NCBI RefSeq assembly: GCF_014651675.1
Contig: NZ_BMXI01000023.1
Span: 1-64,000 of the forward strand
DNA from: Roseibacillus persicicus
Lineage (GTDB): Bacteria > Verrucomicrobiota > Verrucomicrobiia > Verrucomicrobiales > Akkermansiaceae
DNA: 64,000 bases
Direction of reading: 5' to 3'
Program-made: the position numbers and the translations under genes
The notes under the pieces: model-generated
Seen by the model: the letters and a program-made list of their open reading frames with translations, nothing else
Databases searched by the model: none
What the model was told of the DNA's origin: nothing
Shown here: piece after piece, positions 2,427 to 60,741 of the stretch
Numbering within the stretch: position 1 is the first letter of the stretch
Layout: every line of letters begins with the position of its first letter

Positions 2427-5312
2427 ATGCTTTCAAAATCCATCCTCACACTTCCAATCGGGTTGCTGACCTTTGGGAACCTTGCAGCCGAGGTCTCTTT
2501 CAACTTCGAGATTCGCCCCATTCTCTCGAAGAATTGCATTGGCTGCCACGGTCCGGATCCTGAGGATAGGAAGGCTGACCTGCGCTTGGACACCTTCGAA
2601 GGAGCGACCGCGGAGGTCCAAGGCTACGCCGCAATCGTGCCCCATCATCCCGAGAAAAGCACTCTCATCGAACGGGTCCGCACCGACGATCCCGATGACG
2701 TCATGCCGCCCCCGGAACATGGCCATACCCTCTCGGAATCGCAGATCGTTTTGCTGGAGACTTGGATCAAAGAAGGAGCCCAATATGAGACCCACTGGTC
2801 CTTCGCCCCCATCGCCGAGCACACTCCTCCAGCCGTGGAGAAACAGGGCTGGGCTGAGAACCCCATTGACGCCTTCATCTTGAAAGGGCTGGAATCCGCA
2901 GATTTGAGCCCGACTGAACCAGCGGATGCGGTTGAGATGATTCGACGTCTCTCTCTGGACCTGATCGGTCTTCCCCCCTCCTTGGACGAAGTCGAGGCCT
3001 TCAAATTGGCTTACGAAAAGAACCCACGCCAGGCGGTTAGCGAGGCCGCCGATCGGCTCTTGGCCTCACCCAATTACGGGGAGCACTGGGCGTCCATGTG
3101 GCTCGATATGGCGCGTTATGCGGACACCGTGGGCTATTCCGGAGACGAGCACCGCGACATTTGGCCTTGGCGAGACTGGGTCATCGAGGCCTTCAACGAC
3201 AACAAGCCCTACGACGAATTCATCATCGAACAGGTGGCGGGAGATCTTCTCCCCGAGGCGACTGAGCAGCAACGACTGGCCACCGCTTTCCATCGCCTGA
3301 CGATGAACAATAACGAAGGTGGAACCAATGACGAAGAGTTCCGCACCATCGCCGTCAAGGACCGCCTGAGCACCACCATCAATACCGCCATGGGGCTGAC
3401 TGTCCGGTGCGCGGAGTGCCATACCCACAAGTATGATCCCATCAGCCATGAGGAGTATTATCAACTCTATGCCTTTTTCAACCAGACGGCGGACGCCGAC
3501 AGGCGGGACGACAATCCCCGCATGGACGTCATGCCCAAGGCCGATGAGAGCAAACTGGCTGAGATTCATGCCAGAATTTCTCAGTTAGAAGAACGAGCCG
3601 TCAGCGAATCTCCCTGGTTTCTGTTGCCTCTGGACGAGGTGCACGCGACCGAGGAAGTCCTTCTTGAGAAAGAGAGCGACGGGTCCGTTATTGCCAAAGG
3701 TCCCAATGCCGATTACCCGACTTACACCTTGGCCGCGCCCACTCCAGTGGAGCCTGTCACCGCGATTCGGCTCGAGTTGCTGCCCGACCGCCGACACAAT
3801 GACAATGTGGGACGCTCTCCATCGGGAGCGATGGTGATGAGCCAGGTCAGGTTGGTCGAAATCTCACCCGACGGCACCCGGACAGTGAGAAAGTTCGCTA
3901 GCGCTGCCGCCGATCATTCCCAACCCAACTATGGAGTTGAAAACCTCATTGGCGACGAGCCCCACGAAAATGGATGGGCGGTCAAGCACGACAAGGAAGG
4001 TTTCCGCGCCAAGAGAACCGCGGTCTTCGAACTTGCCGAGCCACTCACCGCTCCGCAGGGCAGCCGTCTGGAGGTCAAACTGGTCTTCAAATCGCAATGG
4101 CCAAGAATGACCGCGGGACGAGTTCGTCTGGCGACCACCTCGGTGGAGAATCCGGTTGAAAAATTCAAGAACAATACTCTGGAGCCAATCACGGTTGAAA
4201 TCGCCGAACTGAAAAAGCAGCAGACCAAGCCTGTGCGCGTACCCATCGCGCAGGATCTCCCTCCGGACAAGCAGCGCGAGACCCGCATGATGACCCGGGG
4301 ATCATTCATGCAACCCGGGGAGAAAGTCTCACCCGCCCTTCCCGTAGCCTTTGGAAGCCTGCCGGAAGGAGCACCCCGCAATCGTTTGTCCCTCGCCCAA
4401 TGGCTGGTGAACGATGACAACCCCCTTACCGCGCGCGTAGCAGCCAATCGCTATTGGGCTCGCTTCTTTGGGATCGGGATCGTGGAAACCGAGGAAGACT
4501 TTGGCACCCAGGGAACTCTCCCCTCGCACCCCGAGCTTCTCGATTGGCTGGCTAGCGAATATCGCGATAGCGGCTGGGACACGAAGAAATTTCTCAAGCT
4601 CCTCGTGACCTCGGAAGCCTACCGCCAAAGCTCGGTCACCACTCCTGAACGTCTGGAAAAGGATCCTCGCAACATCCTCGTCTCCCGCGGACCGCGCTTC
4701 CGCCTGTCCGCCGAGGTTGTGCGGGATCAGGCTCTTGCGGCCTCGGGGCTGTTGACCAACAAGCTCTATGGCGAGCCCGTCTACCCCCCGTCTCCCATCA
4801 AGACCTTCACCAATGCCTTCTCGGGCTCCACGGTCTGGGTGGAAAGCACCGGTCCGGATCGATATCGACGTGCGATCTACACCTACCTCAAGCGCTCCAA
4901 CCCACATCCTCTCTTCGAGACCTTCGACATGGCTACCCGGGACGTCTGCGTCCTCCGCCGCTTCCGCACCAATACACCATTGCAGTCCTTCATGACCCTG
5001 AACGATCCTGTCTTCGTTGAAGCCTCGCAAGCCTTGGCCCGGATCATGGATGGCCACTCCCCCGACCTCAGGGAAAAGATTCGACAAGGTTACCTCCGGG
5101 TCCTCCTGCAAGAGCCTGGCGAGGAACAGCTCGACGCCTTCGAAGACCTCTATCAGGAGACTCTCCTAGACTATCAGGACTCCCCGCAGGAAGCCCTCAA
5201 ACTGGCCGGCAATACTCCGACTCCAGCCATTCTCGACAACGCGGCCGAACTGGCCAGCCTGACGGTGGTCGCCAACGTCATGCTCAATCTCGACGCCTTT
5301 CTCTGCAAGTAA
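2427..5312 (+). CDS. Exported PSCyt1-DUF1549-DUF1553 c-type cytochrome-like protein
   Basis: 961 residues, typical of the large Planctomycete/Verrucomicrobia 'PSD1' family. A signal peptide (about residues 1-21) precedes the PSCyt1 domain with haem-binding motif CIGCH (C37, C40, H41), the DUF1549 domain (from about 150: NPIDAFILKGLE, LSLDLIGLPP) with a second CxxCH (CAECH, C328-H332), a central jelly-roll-like insert, and a C-terminal DUF1553 domain (from about 650: NPLTARVAANRYWARFFG). The family is always found beside a DUF1501 partner, as here one base downstream, and is thought to act in the periplasm in polysaccharide breakdown; the reaction is not established. Start ATG 2427 is chosen because it opens the signal peptide; the open frame upstream to 2160 runs through the tandem repeat and is not protein-like. 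Confidence 0.93.
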   Translation: MLSKSILTLPIGLLTFGNLAAEVSFNFEIRPILSKNCIGCHGPDPEDRKADLRLDTFEGATAEVQGYAAIVPHHPEKSTLIERVRTDDPDDVMPPPEHGHTLSESQIVLLETWIKEGAQYETHWSFAPIAEHTPPAVEKQGWAENPIDAFILKGLESADLSPTEPADAVEMIRRLSLDLIGLPPSLDEVEAFKLAYEKNPRQAVSEAADRLLASPNYGEHWASMWLDMARYADTVGYSGDEHRDIWPWRDWVIEAFNDNKPYDEFIIEQVAGDLLPEATEQQRLATAFHRLTMNNNEGGTNDEEFRTIAVKDRLSTTINTAMGLTVRCAECHTHKYDPISHEEYYQLYAFFNQTADADRRDDNPRMDVMPKADESKLAEIHARISQLEERAVSESPWFLLPLDEVHATEEVLLEKESDGSVIAKGPNADYPTYTLAAPTPVEPVTAIRLELLPDRRHNDNVGRSPSGAMVMSQVRLVEISPDGTRTVRKFASAAADHSQPNYGVENLIGDEPHENGWAVKHDKEGFRAKRTAVFELAEPLTAPQGSRLEVKLVFKSQWPRMTAGRVRLATTSVENPVEKFKNNTLEPITVEIAELKKQQTKPVRVPIAQDLPPDKQRETRMMTRGSFMQPGEKVSPALPVAFGSLPEGAPRNRLSLAQWLVNDDNPLTARVAANRYWARFFGIGIVETEEDFGTQGTLPSHPELLDWLASEYRDSGWDTKKFLKLLVTSEAYRQSSVTTPERLEKDPRNILVSRGPRFRLSAEVVRDQALAASGLLTNKLYGEPVYPPSPIKTFTNAFSGSTVWVESTGPDRYRRAIYTYLKRSNPHPLFETFDMATRDVCVLRRFRTNTPLQSFMTLNDPVFVEASQALARIMDGHSPDLREKIRQGYLRVLLQEPGEEQLDAFEDLYQETLLDYQDSPQEALKLAGNTPTPAILDNAAELASLTVVANVMLNLDAFLCK

Positions 5313-40264: not shown

Positions 40265-41308
40265 ATGAAAACCATCGCTCTCCTTCTACTCGCCTGCTCG
40301 ACAGCCTTTTCCCAAGGCCCACGTCCAGAACAATTGGAGGCTTCTCCCCAGGCCGTCGGAGAGGCCGGGCTCGTCTGGTATACCACTTGGGAAACCGCAC
40401 TCGCGGAGGCCAAGCGCTCCAACCGCCCCATTTTCTTCATGGCTGCGGCAGCGACCTGCAATGGCATTCCCGGGGTCTTCTGACCGGGCTACACCAAGAC
40501 GCAGAACAGTTTGTTCTCGCAAAAAGAGTTTATCGCCGCCAGCCGCCAGTTCGTCTGTGTCCGCCTCGAGTCCTACGAGTCCGAGGAACACCAGAAGATG
40601 GTGCGCAAATTCCTCGGAGGAAGCTTCGCCAATACCGCGTTCGCCATCCTCGCCCCCGATGGCGAAACTCAGCTTTCGCGCAGCGGACGGAGCCCCCATG
40701 TGCTGTTGGGTCGAAGAGGGCGCACTGAAGACGCGGCGCCCGCTGAGGTGATTCAGGAACTCACCCGAATCGCCGCGAACTATCAGCCTAAGGGAAATGC
40801 CTCAGAGGCGACCCTACCGGACTTCCATACAACCCGACAGGCCCTAAACGTAGCCGCCGGGGATCAACGCCTTCTCGTCCTGACCGTCGCCTCCGGAAGG
40901 TCGCTCCTGATGGCAAAGACCACCTTGCGCACGGTTCTCAATGATTCCGAACTCATCGGACGCTTCCATCACGACTTCGCGGAAAAAGAGTCAGCTCCGG
41001 AATGGACGAAACTTTTGGAAGGCGAAAAAGAGACCAGCGGATTCCTCGTGATAGCCCCGGATTCATTTGGCCTCAAAGGGAAAGTCATGGCGCAACTTCC
41101 GCTCACCGCCAGCGTGGACATACTCAAGAATACCCTCATTGCAAAGAACAAAATCTACTCCAACGAAACCGAGCGGACAAACTACAGCGAACACGTGCGC
41201 GAAGGGCGGCAGAAGAAGGTCTACTTCCCCAACGCGATGCCCTATGGCGAAGACCGCGATGGGGACGGCGTGATCGACAAGCGCGCGGAACGCGGCCCTC
41301 GTCGCTAG
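40265..41308 (+). CDS. Candidate selenoprotein: exported thioredoxin-fold protein, in-frame TGA as Sec73
   Basis: Read with TGA at 40481-40483 as selenocysteine this gives 347 residues; a stop there would leave 72. Signal peptide MKTIALLLLACSTAFS; then 'WETALAEAKRSNRPIFFMAA', typical of thioredoxin-like proteins, C65-x7-U73 (CNGIPGVF, U, PGYTKTQN) and continuing 'LFSQKEFIAASRQFVCVRLE'. The frame stays open for 275 more codons with coding-like composition to TAG. The TGA aligns with the TGA in 56174-57310. A SECIS-like hairpin lies at 40503-40517. The likely role is a periplasmic redox protein. The alternative, a pseudogene with one nonsense mutation, is disfavoured by the second homologous case. 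Coordinates given for the read-through product. Confidence 0.78.
40503..40517 (+). promoter_or_regulatory. SECIS-like hairpin downstream of TGA 40481
   Basis: AGAAC (40503-40507) pairs with GTTCT (40513-40517); the closing A-T at 40508/40512 can extend the stem to six pairs with loop GTT. The first loop G is 26 nt beyond the TGA, within the spacing known for bacterial SECIS elements, which need a G near the start of the apical loop. The stem has the same sequence as the hairpin at 56521-56538. Confidence 0.65.
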
Positions 41309-56173: not shown

Positions 56174-57310
56174 ATGAAAGCCTTCCTGCCCTTCCTAGCC
56201 CTTGCCCTCACAGTCTTTGCCGAGGAGAACCCACTGGCCTCCGCCGACTCCGCAATAGCTCGCCAAGCCATTGCCTCCGCCATCAAAAAGGGCCCCGCAG
56301 TTCTTCCCGAACTCCGCACCTACGGCAAGTCTGACGACCCGCGCCTCCGTGTTCGCGCCAATGAAGCCATTGGCGGAATCACCGGTCAGTATGGCTCCGA
56401 GGTCGACCTCATCTGGAAACGCTCGGTCAAAGAGGCAATCAACCCGACCAAACCTCTTCTCGTGCTCCACCTCTTCGGCAACTTCGACGAGGAGTTCTGC
56501 TGAGCAAATGGCACTTTAGCGAGAACCGTGACGTTCTCCGATTCCCGTGTCGTCCAATTCATCAACGACAATTTCGTTCCCGTTTGGGAAAGCGTCTCCC
56601 CCGTGCGAACGGTCACCTTCGAGCTCGGCGAAGGCCGCTCCGTCAAAGGCACCATCTCCGGCGAAATCGCGCTCTATTTCTGCACCCCGCAAGGCCACGT
56701 CTACGACATCTTACCAGCCTTGCAATCACCAGCAGCGACTTTGGAGGCCATGAAAGAGGCCGCGGCCTTTCATAGGGGCAGAGTGCTTTCCAGCGAAATG
56801 GATCGAACGCAAAAATTCCACCTCAAGCGGATGGAGGCAATCGCTGGAACCTATTTTGACAAGAAAGAACACAGCCCCGAGGAACTCGAACTCCCCGAGC
56901 CACCTAGACGTCTCGTTCGAGCTTTATTAAAGGCTGAAAATGGAATCACGGCCCGGGACCAACACATCAGCGAGGCCATTGACGAAGCCACGATCGATCT
57001 CCGCATTATGGCCATGTCAAAGGTTGCCATGCCCATGCCAACCGGCTCGCCCCTCATCGTCGTCGAGCCGGGCGGGAAAGACTACTACCGCTGGGAGATT
57101 GCGCGGAGGTTTCAAAATCTAACCCCATGGAAATCCGAACCGAAGGGTTGGAAAGCCCTCGGTCCCCCCGACCCACCCCTCGATCAACGCAGTCCTGATG
57201 AATGGAAAGAAGAACTCTTCGTCCACATCCTCAAGCAGCCCCTCGACCAAGGCCAGGAAGTCACCTACGACTCCGATTCCCTCAAAGCCATCCGCATCAT
57301 CCAAGACTAA
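56174..57310 (+). CDS. Candidate selenoprotein: exported thioredoxin-fold protein, in-frame TGA as Sec110
   Basis: Read with TGA at 56501-56503 as selenocysteine this gives 378 residues. Signal peptide MKAFLPFLALALTVFA, then a helical region and a thioredoxin-like segment: 'PTKPLLVLHLFGNFDEEFC' with C109 followed directly by U110, then ANGTLARTVTFSDSRVVQFI and 'NFVPVWESV'. CU is a frequent redox motif of selenoproteins. The frame continues for 268 codons with protein-like content to TAA. A SECIS-like hairpin lies at 56521-56538. Without read-through the product would stop after Cys109. The alternative is a nonsense pseudogene; the intact downstream frame argues against it. Confidence 0.82.
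56521..56538 (+). promoter_or_regulatory. SECIS-like hairpin downstream of TGA 56501
   Basis: Perfect 6-bp stem GAGAAC (56521-56526) / GTTCTC (56533-56538), loop CGTGAC with G at its second position, 25 nt beyond the TGA. The core AGAAC/GTTCT is identical to the hairpin in the other candidate, although the surrounding sequences differ. Confidence 0.7.
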
Positions 57311-59769: not shown

Positions 59770-60741
59770 CTAGCCGCGCTTTTCCTTTTGCTCTTCGATC
59801 CACAATCGGTCTTCTGCCGACAGATTGCTCTCCTTTGTCTCATAGCGCACCCCGTTGGGCGCTATCAAGATCAGGTTCCCATCCTTATAAGCTGCGAGCC
59901 GGGCCAGAATTTTCAGGTCATTCTTTCCCGTCCATCTGCGATATCCTTTTTTCTGAAGCTTTTCCTCGAATTTCTTTTGCCGAGCCTTGCTGGTCTCCAA
60001 TGCAGTCCGCAGCAGACCCCAGGTGAATTCGGAATTCCCACTCCGGTAACCACGGACGTGCTGCACGACCGAACCATCGGTAGCGACCACGATGAGAGCG
60101 GGAAATCCCCCCACCTTGTAGCGTTTCTTTAGGGAAAGAAGATACTTCTCCTTCGCCAAAGCGATGCTCTGACGAGCCGTGTCGGCCGACTTCCGGTCCT
60201 TGACATTGAAATCGAGCTTCAAGCGGACAAAGTTCTCTCCAGCCCAATCTGCAAAATCCGAACGGGCGATCAGCTCGCTTTCCAAACGAGCCGCAGCGGG
60301 ACTCCCTCCGCTTTGCGGACTCGGTGTGTCAGTGAAAAAAATCAGGAGGGGCTTGGACTCCACCAGAGAAAGGTTTTTGGCAACGGTATGACTTTCCTGC
60401 CAGTCCTTTCGAGCGACACCGAAGAGACCCTGGATGGCGGCTTCCGACCCTTCGAAATCGTCGGGGTTGGTGAAAATAATATCATCTTCGGACGGCAGAC
60501 CCGCTACCCCGCCTTGACTTGCAGCCAAGGAGGCAGGATCGACTCCCGCCGCCACCAAACGCTCTTCGGTCGGCTCCACCTTGGCTGTCGCGCTACCGCC
60601 AGCGCGCAAGTGAGCGGGAACTTCCGGAACCTTTCCAAAATTATCCTCTTCTTCTCCGGGCTTCATCTTGGAAATCAATCCTCCCACTTGCCCGCAGGAA
60701 GAGAGACAAAGAAGCGAAAGTAAAACTGAATACCGAACCAT
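59770..60741 (-). CDS. Thioredoxin-like lipoprotein without redox cysteines
   Basis: 323 residues. Lipoprotein signal MVRYSVLLSLLCLSSCGQ with the lipobox LSSC (Cys16), an acidic linker, and a thioredoxin-like domain from about 125: 'SKPLLIFFTDTPSPQSGG', 'NFVRLKLDF', 'KKRYKVGGFPALIVVATDGS' (the cis-Pro strand), 'HVRGYRSGNSEF'. The position of the usual CxxC is TPSPQSGG, with no cysteine, so it is not a disulfide enzyme of the normal type. Layout resembles the two selenoprotein candidates, which makes it a Cys/Sec-free relative. Probably outer-membrane anchored. Confidence 0.82.
   Translation of the reverse strand: MVRYSVLLSLLCLSSCGQVGGLISKMKPGEEEDNFGKVPEVPAHLRAGGSATAKVEPTEERLVAAGVDPASLAASQGGVAGLPSEDDIIFTNPDDFEGSEAAIQGLFGVARKDWQESHTVAKNLSLVESKPLLIFFTDTPSPQSGGSPAAARLESELIARSDFADWAGENFVRLKLDFNVKDRKSADTARQSIALAKEKYLLSLKKRYKVGGFPALIVVATDGSVVQHVRGYRSGNSEFTWGLLRTALETSKARQKKFEEKLQKKGYRRWTGKNDLKILARLAAYKDGNLILIAPNGVRYETKESNLSAEDRLWIEEQKEKRG

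Follow-up and report, generated by a model that had tools for sequence, protein, structure and literature searches.

Why does a reading frame of Roseibacillus persicicus run on through a TGA codon? The frame occupies positions 56174-57310 on the forward strand of the window, which is the whole 64,000-nucleotide stretch of contig NZ_BMXI01000023.1 analysed here. It begins with an ATG at 56174, ends with a TAA at 57308-57310, and contains a single in-frame TGA (56501-56503, codon 110). The triplet immediately 5' of this TGA, at 56498-56500, is the Cys codon TGC. The 268 codons that follow, starting ANGTLARTVTFSDSRVVQFI, continue without interruption up to the TAA. An earlier note, made from the sequence alone, described this arrangement accurately and proposed that the gene encodes an exported selenoprotein. 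With the TGA read as selenocysteine (Sec), the product has 378 residues and an adjacent Cys-Sec pair, C109-U110.

Whole-genome searches with the read-through protein identified homologues in a few related genomes. Six genomes carry TGA at the identical codon: that of the window (G000), G004, G012, G024, G078, and G753, in which the contig ends soon after. These genomes span five genera in two families of one order. The six proteins are 45-74% identical and share the motif E-F/Y-C-U-A-N-G, with C-U-A-N-G as its core. Because this TGA recurs in five other genomes, the assembly error that the earlier note had raised as an objection to its own reading can be set aside; so can its other objection, that homologues might end at Cys109, since they continue past this residue. 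Downstream of the TGA, the protein is conserved and its codons have diverged: only 36% of codon pairs for conserved residues are identical.

What do relatives that lack the TGA have in its place? Cys was found at the Sec110 column in all five such homologues recovered with no motif required (G086, G074, G092, G772, and G859), as the earlier note had expected; two of the five come from genomes without SelA. A pattern search of named genomes then provided 46 loci of the Cys family, most of them with the motif S-C-A-N-S and a few of them the same records as genomes in the first set, from the Acidobacteriota, Cyanobacteriota, Myxococcota, Planctomycetota, and other phyla. All 46 have Cys at the column, but the search required it; these loci therefore document how widespread the Cys family is, and are not independent proof of Cys at this position. 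Searching 388 genomes of the phylum with a profile yielded just one further match, in G427, which was marginal (E 4e-4) and was not confirmed by its motif.

The host genome encodes the machinery for Sec synthesis and insertion. The search for sel genes that the earlier note had suggested located SelA (380 bits), SelB (324 bits) and SelD (374 bits), the latter two exceeding their cut-offs (curated, for SelB), together with a tRNA-Sec with anticodon TCA. The SelD gene itself (L025, G000:C13:136723-137652) has an in-frame TGA, as in Sec-containing SelD proteins. SelA is present in 4/4 other Sec-form genomes tested, and absent from two of the three Cys-form genomes tested within the order. Two observations fit the selenoprotein reading less well: the third Cys-form genome, G086, keeps SelA yet uses Cys, and the selenoprotein gene is missing from three congeneric genomes that encode SelA.

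A hairpin follows the TGA. As previously noted, it has a perfect 6-bp stem and a 6-nt loop (GAGAAC-CGTGAC-GTTCTC, 56521-56538); it starts 17 nt, and its loop 23 nt, after the TGA. As stand-alone evidence the hairpin was rejected. The region folds no better than shuffled sequences (z = -0.67), and by the same rule 65 of the 861 TGA triplets on the forward strand of the window precede a hairpin about as good. Alone, the structure would not have justified the selenoprotein claim; it counts as evidence because of comparison across genes.

Five Sec genes could be compared over this region. The codons for residues 116-121 (GCG AGA RCC GTG ACG TTC) and the following TC are identical at every synonymous site, and the hairpin is placed identically in 5/5 genes. 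Codons for invariant residues are identical across all five genes at 5/5 positions in the hairpin versus 4/110 elsewhere, for which the naive chance, ignoring relatedness, is about 6e-8. Counted as pairs, identical codons make up 54/54 in the hairpin versus 36% over the gene. The sole variable residue, 118 (Thr or Ala), converts an A-U pair to G-U and so keeps the pair; this is one one-sided change, and double-sided covariation was not found in the hairpin. The hairpin sequence occurs in 0/46 Cys homologues, which at the aligned arginine use other codons, mostly CGN and never AGA. The frozen stem codons and their absence from the Cys homologues thus mark what appears to be a working bacterial SECIS.

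A published model sets limits on the spacing, stem length, loop, and energy of bacterial SECIS elements (PMC13188914). The loop position (23 nt), stem (6 bp), and loop G of the hairpin fit these limits. The bare hairpin has an energy of -5.7 kcal/mol, and comes within the limit on energy only when flanking sequence is included; local folds of 40 nt in the five Sec genes range from -7.7 to -9.1, with the minimum in G012 and G024 being a different fold. Rfam, searched at gathering score, gave no match in the window.

Together, the TGA shared by six genomes, the Cys homologues, the Sec machinery, and the frozen SECIS codons strongly support the selenoprotein reading; judged from these comparisons, Sec is almost certainly inserted at UGA 110. 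SelB and tRNA-Sec would decode this codon, directed by the stem-loop just 3' of it.

What kind of protein would result? The amino-terminal sequence, MKAFLPFLALALTVFAEE, resembles a signal peptide, as do homologue starts; the signal-peptide-like segment, MKAFLPFLALALTVFAE, probably extends over 56174-56224. Export, the other part of the original proposal, is therefore supported as a prediction. The full-length AlphaFold model is good for most of residues 20-200 and poor past about 238. Two long helices (residues 20-70, 56231-56383) appear HEAT-repeat-like, with alpha-repeat and TOG proteins among the structural matches and HEAT_2 (PF13646) found in 4/43 family members. They are followed by a predicted thioredoxin-fold domain (residues 77-204, 56402-56785) and a carboxyl-terminal region (residues 205-378, 56786-57307). 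The latter is mostly of low confidence in the model, and contains the conserved blocks VVEPGGxxY and KQxLxxGxVxYxSxSLxAIxxI.

Modelled alone with 47 sequences, domain 77-204 is predicted to adopt a thioredoxin fold (pLDDT 81.5) that matches 3f9u_B with Z 14.1 (104 residues, 2.2 A), DsbD-gamma with Z 12.1, and DsbH with Z 10.7. Foldseek E-values for the domain are modest, the best being 1.2e-3, and Sco proteins are among the weaker matches. Weak similarity to Thioredoxin_7 (PF13899) occurs in 10/43 family members (best E 2.9e-4); two members scored singly gave 16.2 and 13.1 bits, below the gathering score of 27 bits. The selenoprotein itself has no match in Pfam, none in NCBIfam at E up to 10 (including the Trx7/PDZ and VPGUxxT models), and, either alone or as a profile, no usable match among sequences of solved structures. 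Gene context offers no guide: neighbours common to the Sec genes, or consistent partners around the Cys genes, were not found.

In the model, the first active-site helix begins at residue 111, which gives Sec110 the position that the first of the two catalytic Cys residues occupies in thioredoxins. That Sec is inserted and also forms part of a thioredoxin-type redox site is, taken jointly, highly probable, and the protein is most likely a periplasmic thiol/selenol oxidoreductase. It would consist of amino-terminal helical repeats, the thioredoxin-fold domain, and the conserved carboxyl-terminal region, with Sec110 predicted to cap the first active-site helix, as the leading Cys does in CxxC thioredoxins. 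Acting as the attacking group, the selenolate of Sec110 may reduce a disulfide or a peroxide-type substrate.

How oxidised Sec110 would be resolved is a more delicate matter. The active site contains neither CxxC nor UxxC/CxxU, but reads U-A-N-G in Sec forms and C-A-N-S in Cys forms. Since the usual position of the second Cys is Gly, and Cys109 is the sole thiol neighbouring Sec110, Cys109 probably plays the resolving role if a local thiol does so: it would form a vicinal selenenylsulfide with Sec110, after which a periplasmic thiol reductase would re-reduce the pair. Distribution fits this proposal, in that residue 109 is Cys in 6/6 Sec forms and Ser in all 37 aligned Cys forms; a C-C sequence at 109-110 occurs in G092 (L020/L072), the sole Cys form with Cys109, and its frame breaks shortly after. 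Residue 113 varies likewise, being Gly in the Sec clade and Ser in the Cys family. Although Cys109 thus changes together with Sec, as expected for a redox pair, the co-change was possibly one historical event, and the resolving pair is accordingly put forward tentatively. The earlier description of a redox-active Cys-Sec pair therefore stands for Sec, at the catalytic position of the predicted fold; the partnership with Cys109 is a suggestion.

A different solution is that Sec110 acts as a single chalcogen, like the active site of CxxS monothiol thioredoxin relatives, with an outside thiol resolving it and Cys109 standing outside the cycle. Ser109 and Ser113 flank a lone Cys110 in nearly all Cys relatives, so that the chemistry of the family needs no second local thiol and can do without a resolving Cys. 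Set against this is the invariant Cys109 of the Sec forms: a Cys gained beside Sec suggests a role, with the proviso that the Sec forms are one clade and the gain maybe a single event. (No direction of change is claimed, because the tree has no fixed root and the branches between Sec and Cys groups are very long.) We regard single-chalcogen catalysis as plausible yet short of probable. It is a variant of the oxidoreductase reading preferred here, and confidence in the two overlaps.

Might the adjacent thiol and selenol instead bind soft metals, for example copper or mercury, in the manner of thioredoxin-fold chaperones of the Sco type? The Sco proteins among the weaker fold matches hint at this, and known CU selenoproteins include the metal-linked MbdU, SaoL, and HgcA (review table). 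However, only one Cys is present at the site in the Cys relatives, the domain alignment contains no invariant His, the best fold matches are oxidoreductases of the DsbD-gamma/DsbH type, and no consistent neighbourhood of metal genes was found. A metal role is thus unlikely.

Far less probable is that the TGA is an ordinary stop, yielding a 109-residue protein followed by a decayed frame or a separately started gene. A 260-codon ORF could start with GTG at 56528, and deleted or partial copies do exist: that in G761 (L079) is missing its central part, and with it the CU region, and that in G589 (L076) keeps the hairpin sequence and lacks the CU motif. Both copies possibly represent decay or assembly faults, and degraded or incomplete copies (in G761, G589, G687, and G702) were left out of the Sec and Cys counts. 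Against a stop, the same TGA lies within one continuous conserved domain in six genomes; Cys homologues continue past it without a break; codons 116-121 are conserved at the RNA level; and the parts before and after the TGA jointly form one thioredoxin fold. These comparisons in effect refute it. Translation of the TGA as another residue (Trp or general read-through), or a sequencing error, is hardly credible: the open frame would accommodate it, but homologues have Cys and never Trp at the column, six genomes share the TGA, and the genome has the full Sec system.

The preferred reading, Sec within an oxidoreductase of thioredoxin type, invites comparison with known systems. The exported proteins DsbD-gamma, DsbH, and Thioredoxin_7 are similar in fold, in export, and in having a reactive residue where the first active-site helix begins. 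They differ in that their active site is CxxC rather than CU-A-N-G (or S-C-A-N-S in the Cys relatives), and the selenoprotein adds the amino-terminal helical repeats and a long carboxyl-terminal region. Relative to DsbD-gamma, it presumably has about six extra residues before the active site. The Trx7/PDZ (NF041199) and VPGUxxT (NF041382/NF041383) selenoproteins likewise are thioredoxin-like with Sec near the active site, but their motifs, CxxU and VPGU respectively, are distinct from CUANG, and the Cys relatives match NF041199 only at E 0.03-0.16.

Adjacent CU motifs have precedents. The review table lists SaoL, SaoC, MbdU, KCU-star, HgcA, and Csac_0668, each with Cys directly before Sec; these belong to other domains, for example a MerB-like lyase, a copper-chaperone-like protein, and a corrinoid protein. 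The S-C-A-N-S proteins (e.g., L029, L040, and L046) share the fold region (26-35% domain identity) and the invariant residues W, G, D, E, C/U, A, N, R, and GDGR or GEGR, but carry Cys at the Sec position, have Ser at 109 and 113, and lack a SECIS. This family (L029-L074) has no confident match in Pfam or NCBIfam.

Is the family new? No CUANG or UANG family appears among the 119 prokaryotic selenoprotein families of the 2026 review table, and a literature search on Verrucomicrobia selenoproteins, the motif, and a Cys-Sec thioredoxin variant found nothing on it. Judged by Pfam, NCBIfam, and the review table, the protein seems to represent an uncatalogued family of a familiar kind, the thioredoxin-like bacterial selenoproteins. 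A stronger formulation, plausible though short of probable, is that of an undescribed family whose thioredoxin fold dispenses with the second active-site Cys and uses the adjacent Cys-Sec pair as redox centre; where the widespread single-Cys family has Ser109, Cys110, and Ser113, it would have Cys109, Sec110, and Gly113.

The prokaryotic selenoproteome would thereby gain one family. Because conventional gene prediction would truncate it at residue 109, the gene would go unrecognised or be annotated wrongly in every Sec-form genome. Side by side, the Sec clade and the Cys family of many phyla lend themselves to two questions: why a thioredoxin fold should carry Sec at one of its residues, and whether an adjacent Cys-Sec pair can replace CxxC.

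Further genes for thioredoxin-like proteins lie in the window or elsewhere in the genome. Near the selenoprotein gene, at 59770-60741 on the reverse strand, is an ORF for an exported thioredoxin-like protein that has no evident CxxC. Another clear selenoprotein gene is present in the window at 40265-41302 on the forward strand (TGA at 40481-40483); its product is exported, with a thioredoxin-like start and the motif G-V-F-U-P-G-Y-T. It has matches in 25 related genomes, the main match spanning one in-frame TGA in each, and U-P-G is found at the same place in 4/4 loci examined; its similarity to NCBIfam models is weak (NF041382, E 0.009). Finally, a VPGUGPC thioredoxin-like selenoprotein is encoded directly after selA on contig C21 of the same genome (G000; L001, about 2460-3488), and matches NF041383 with 325 bits.
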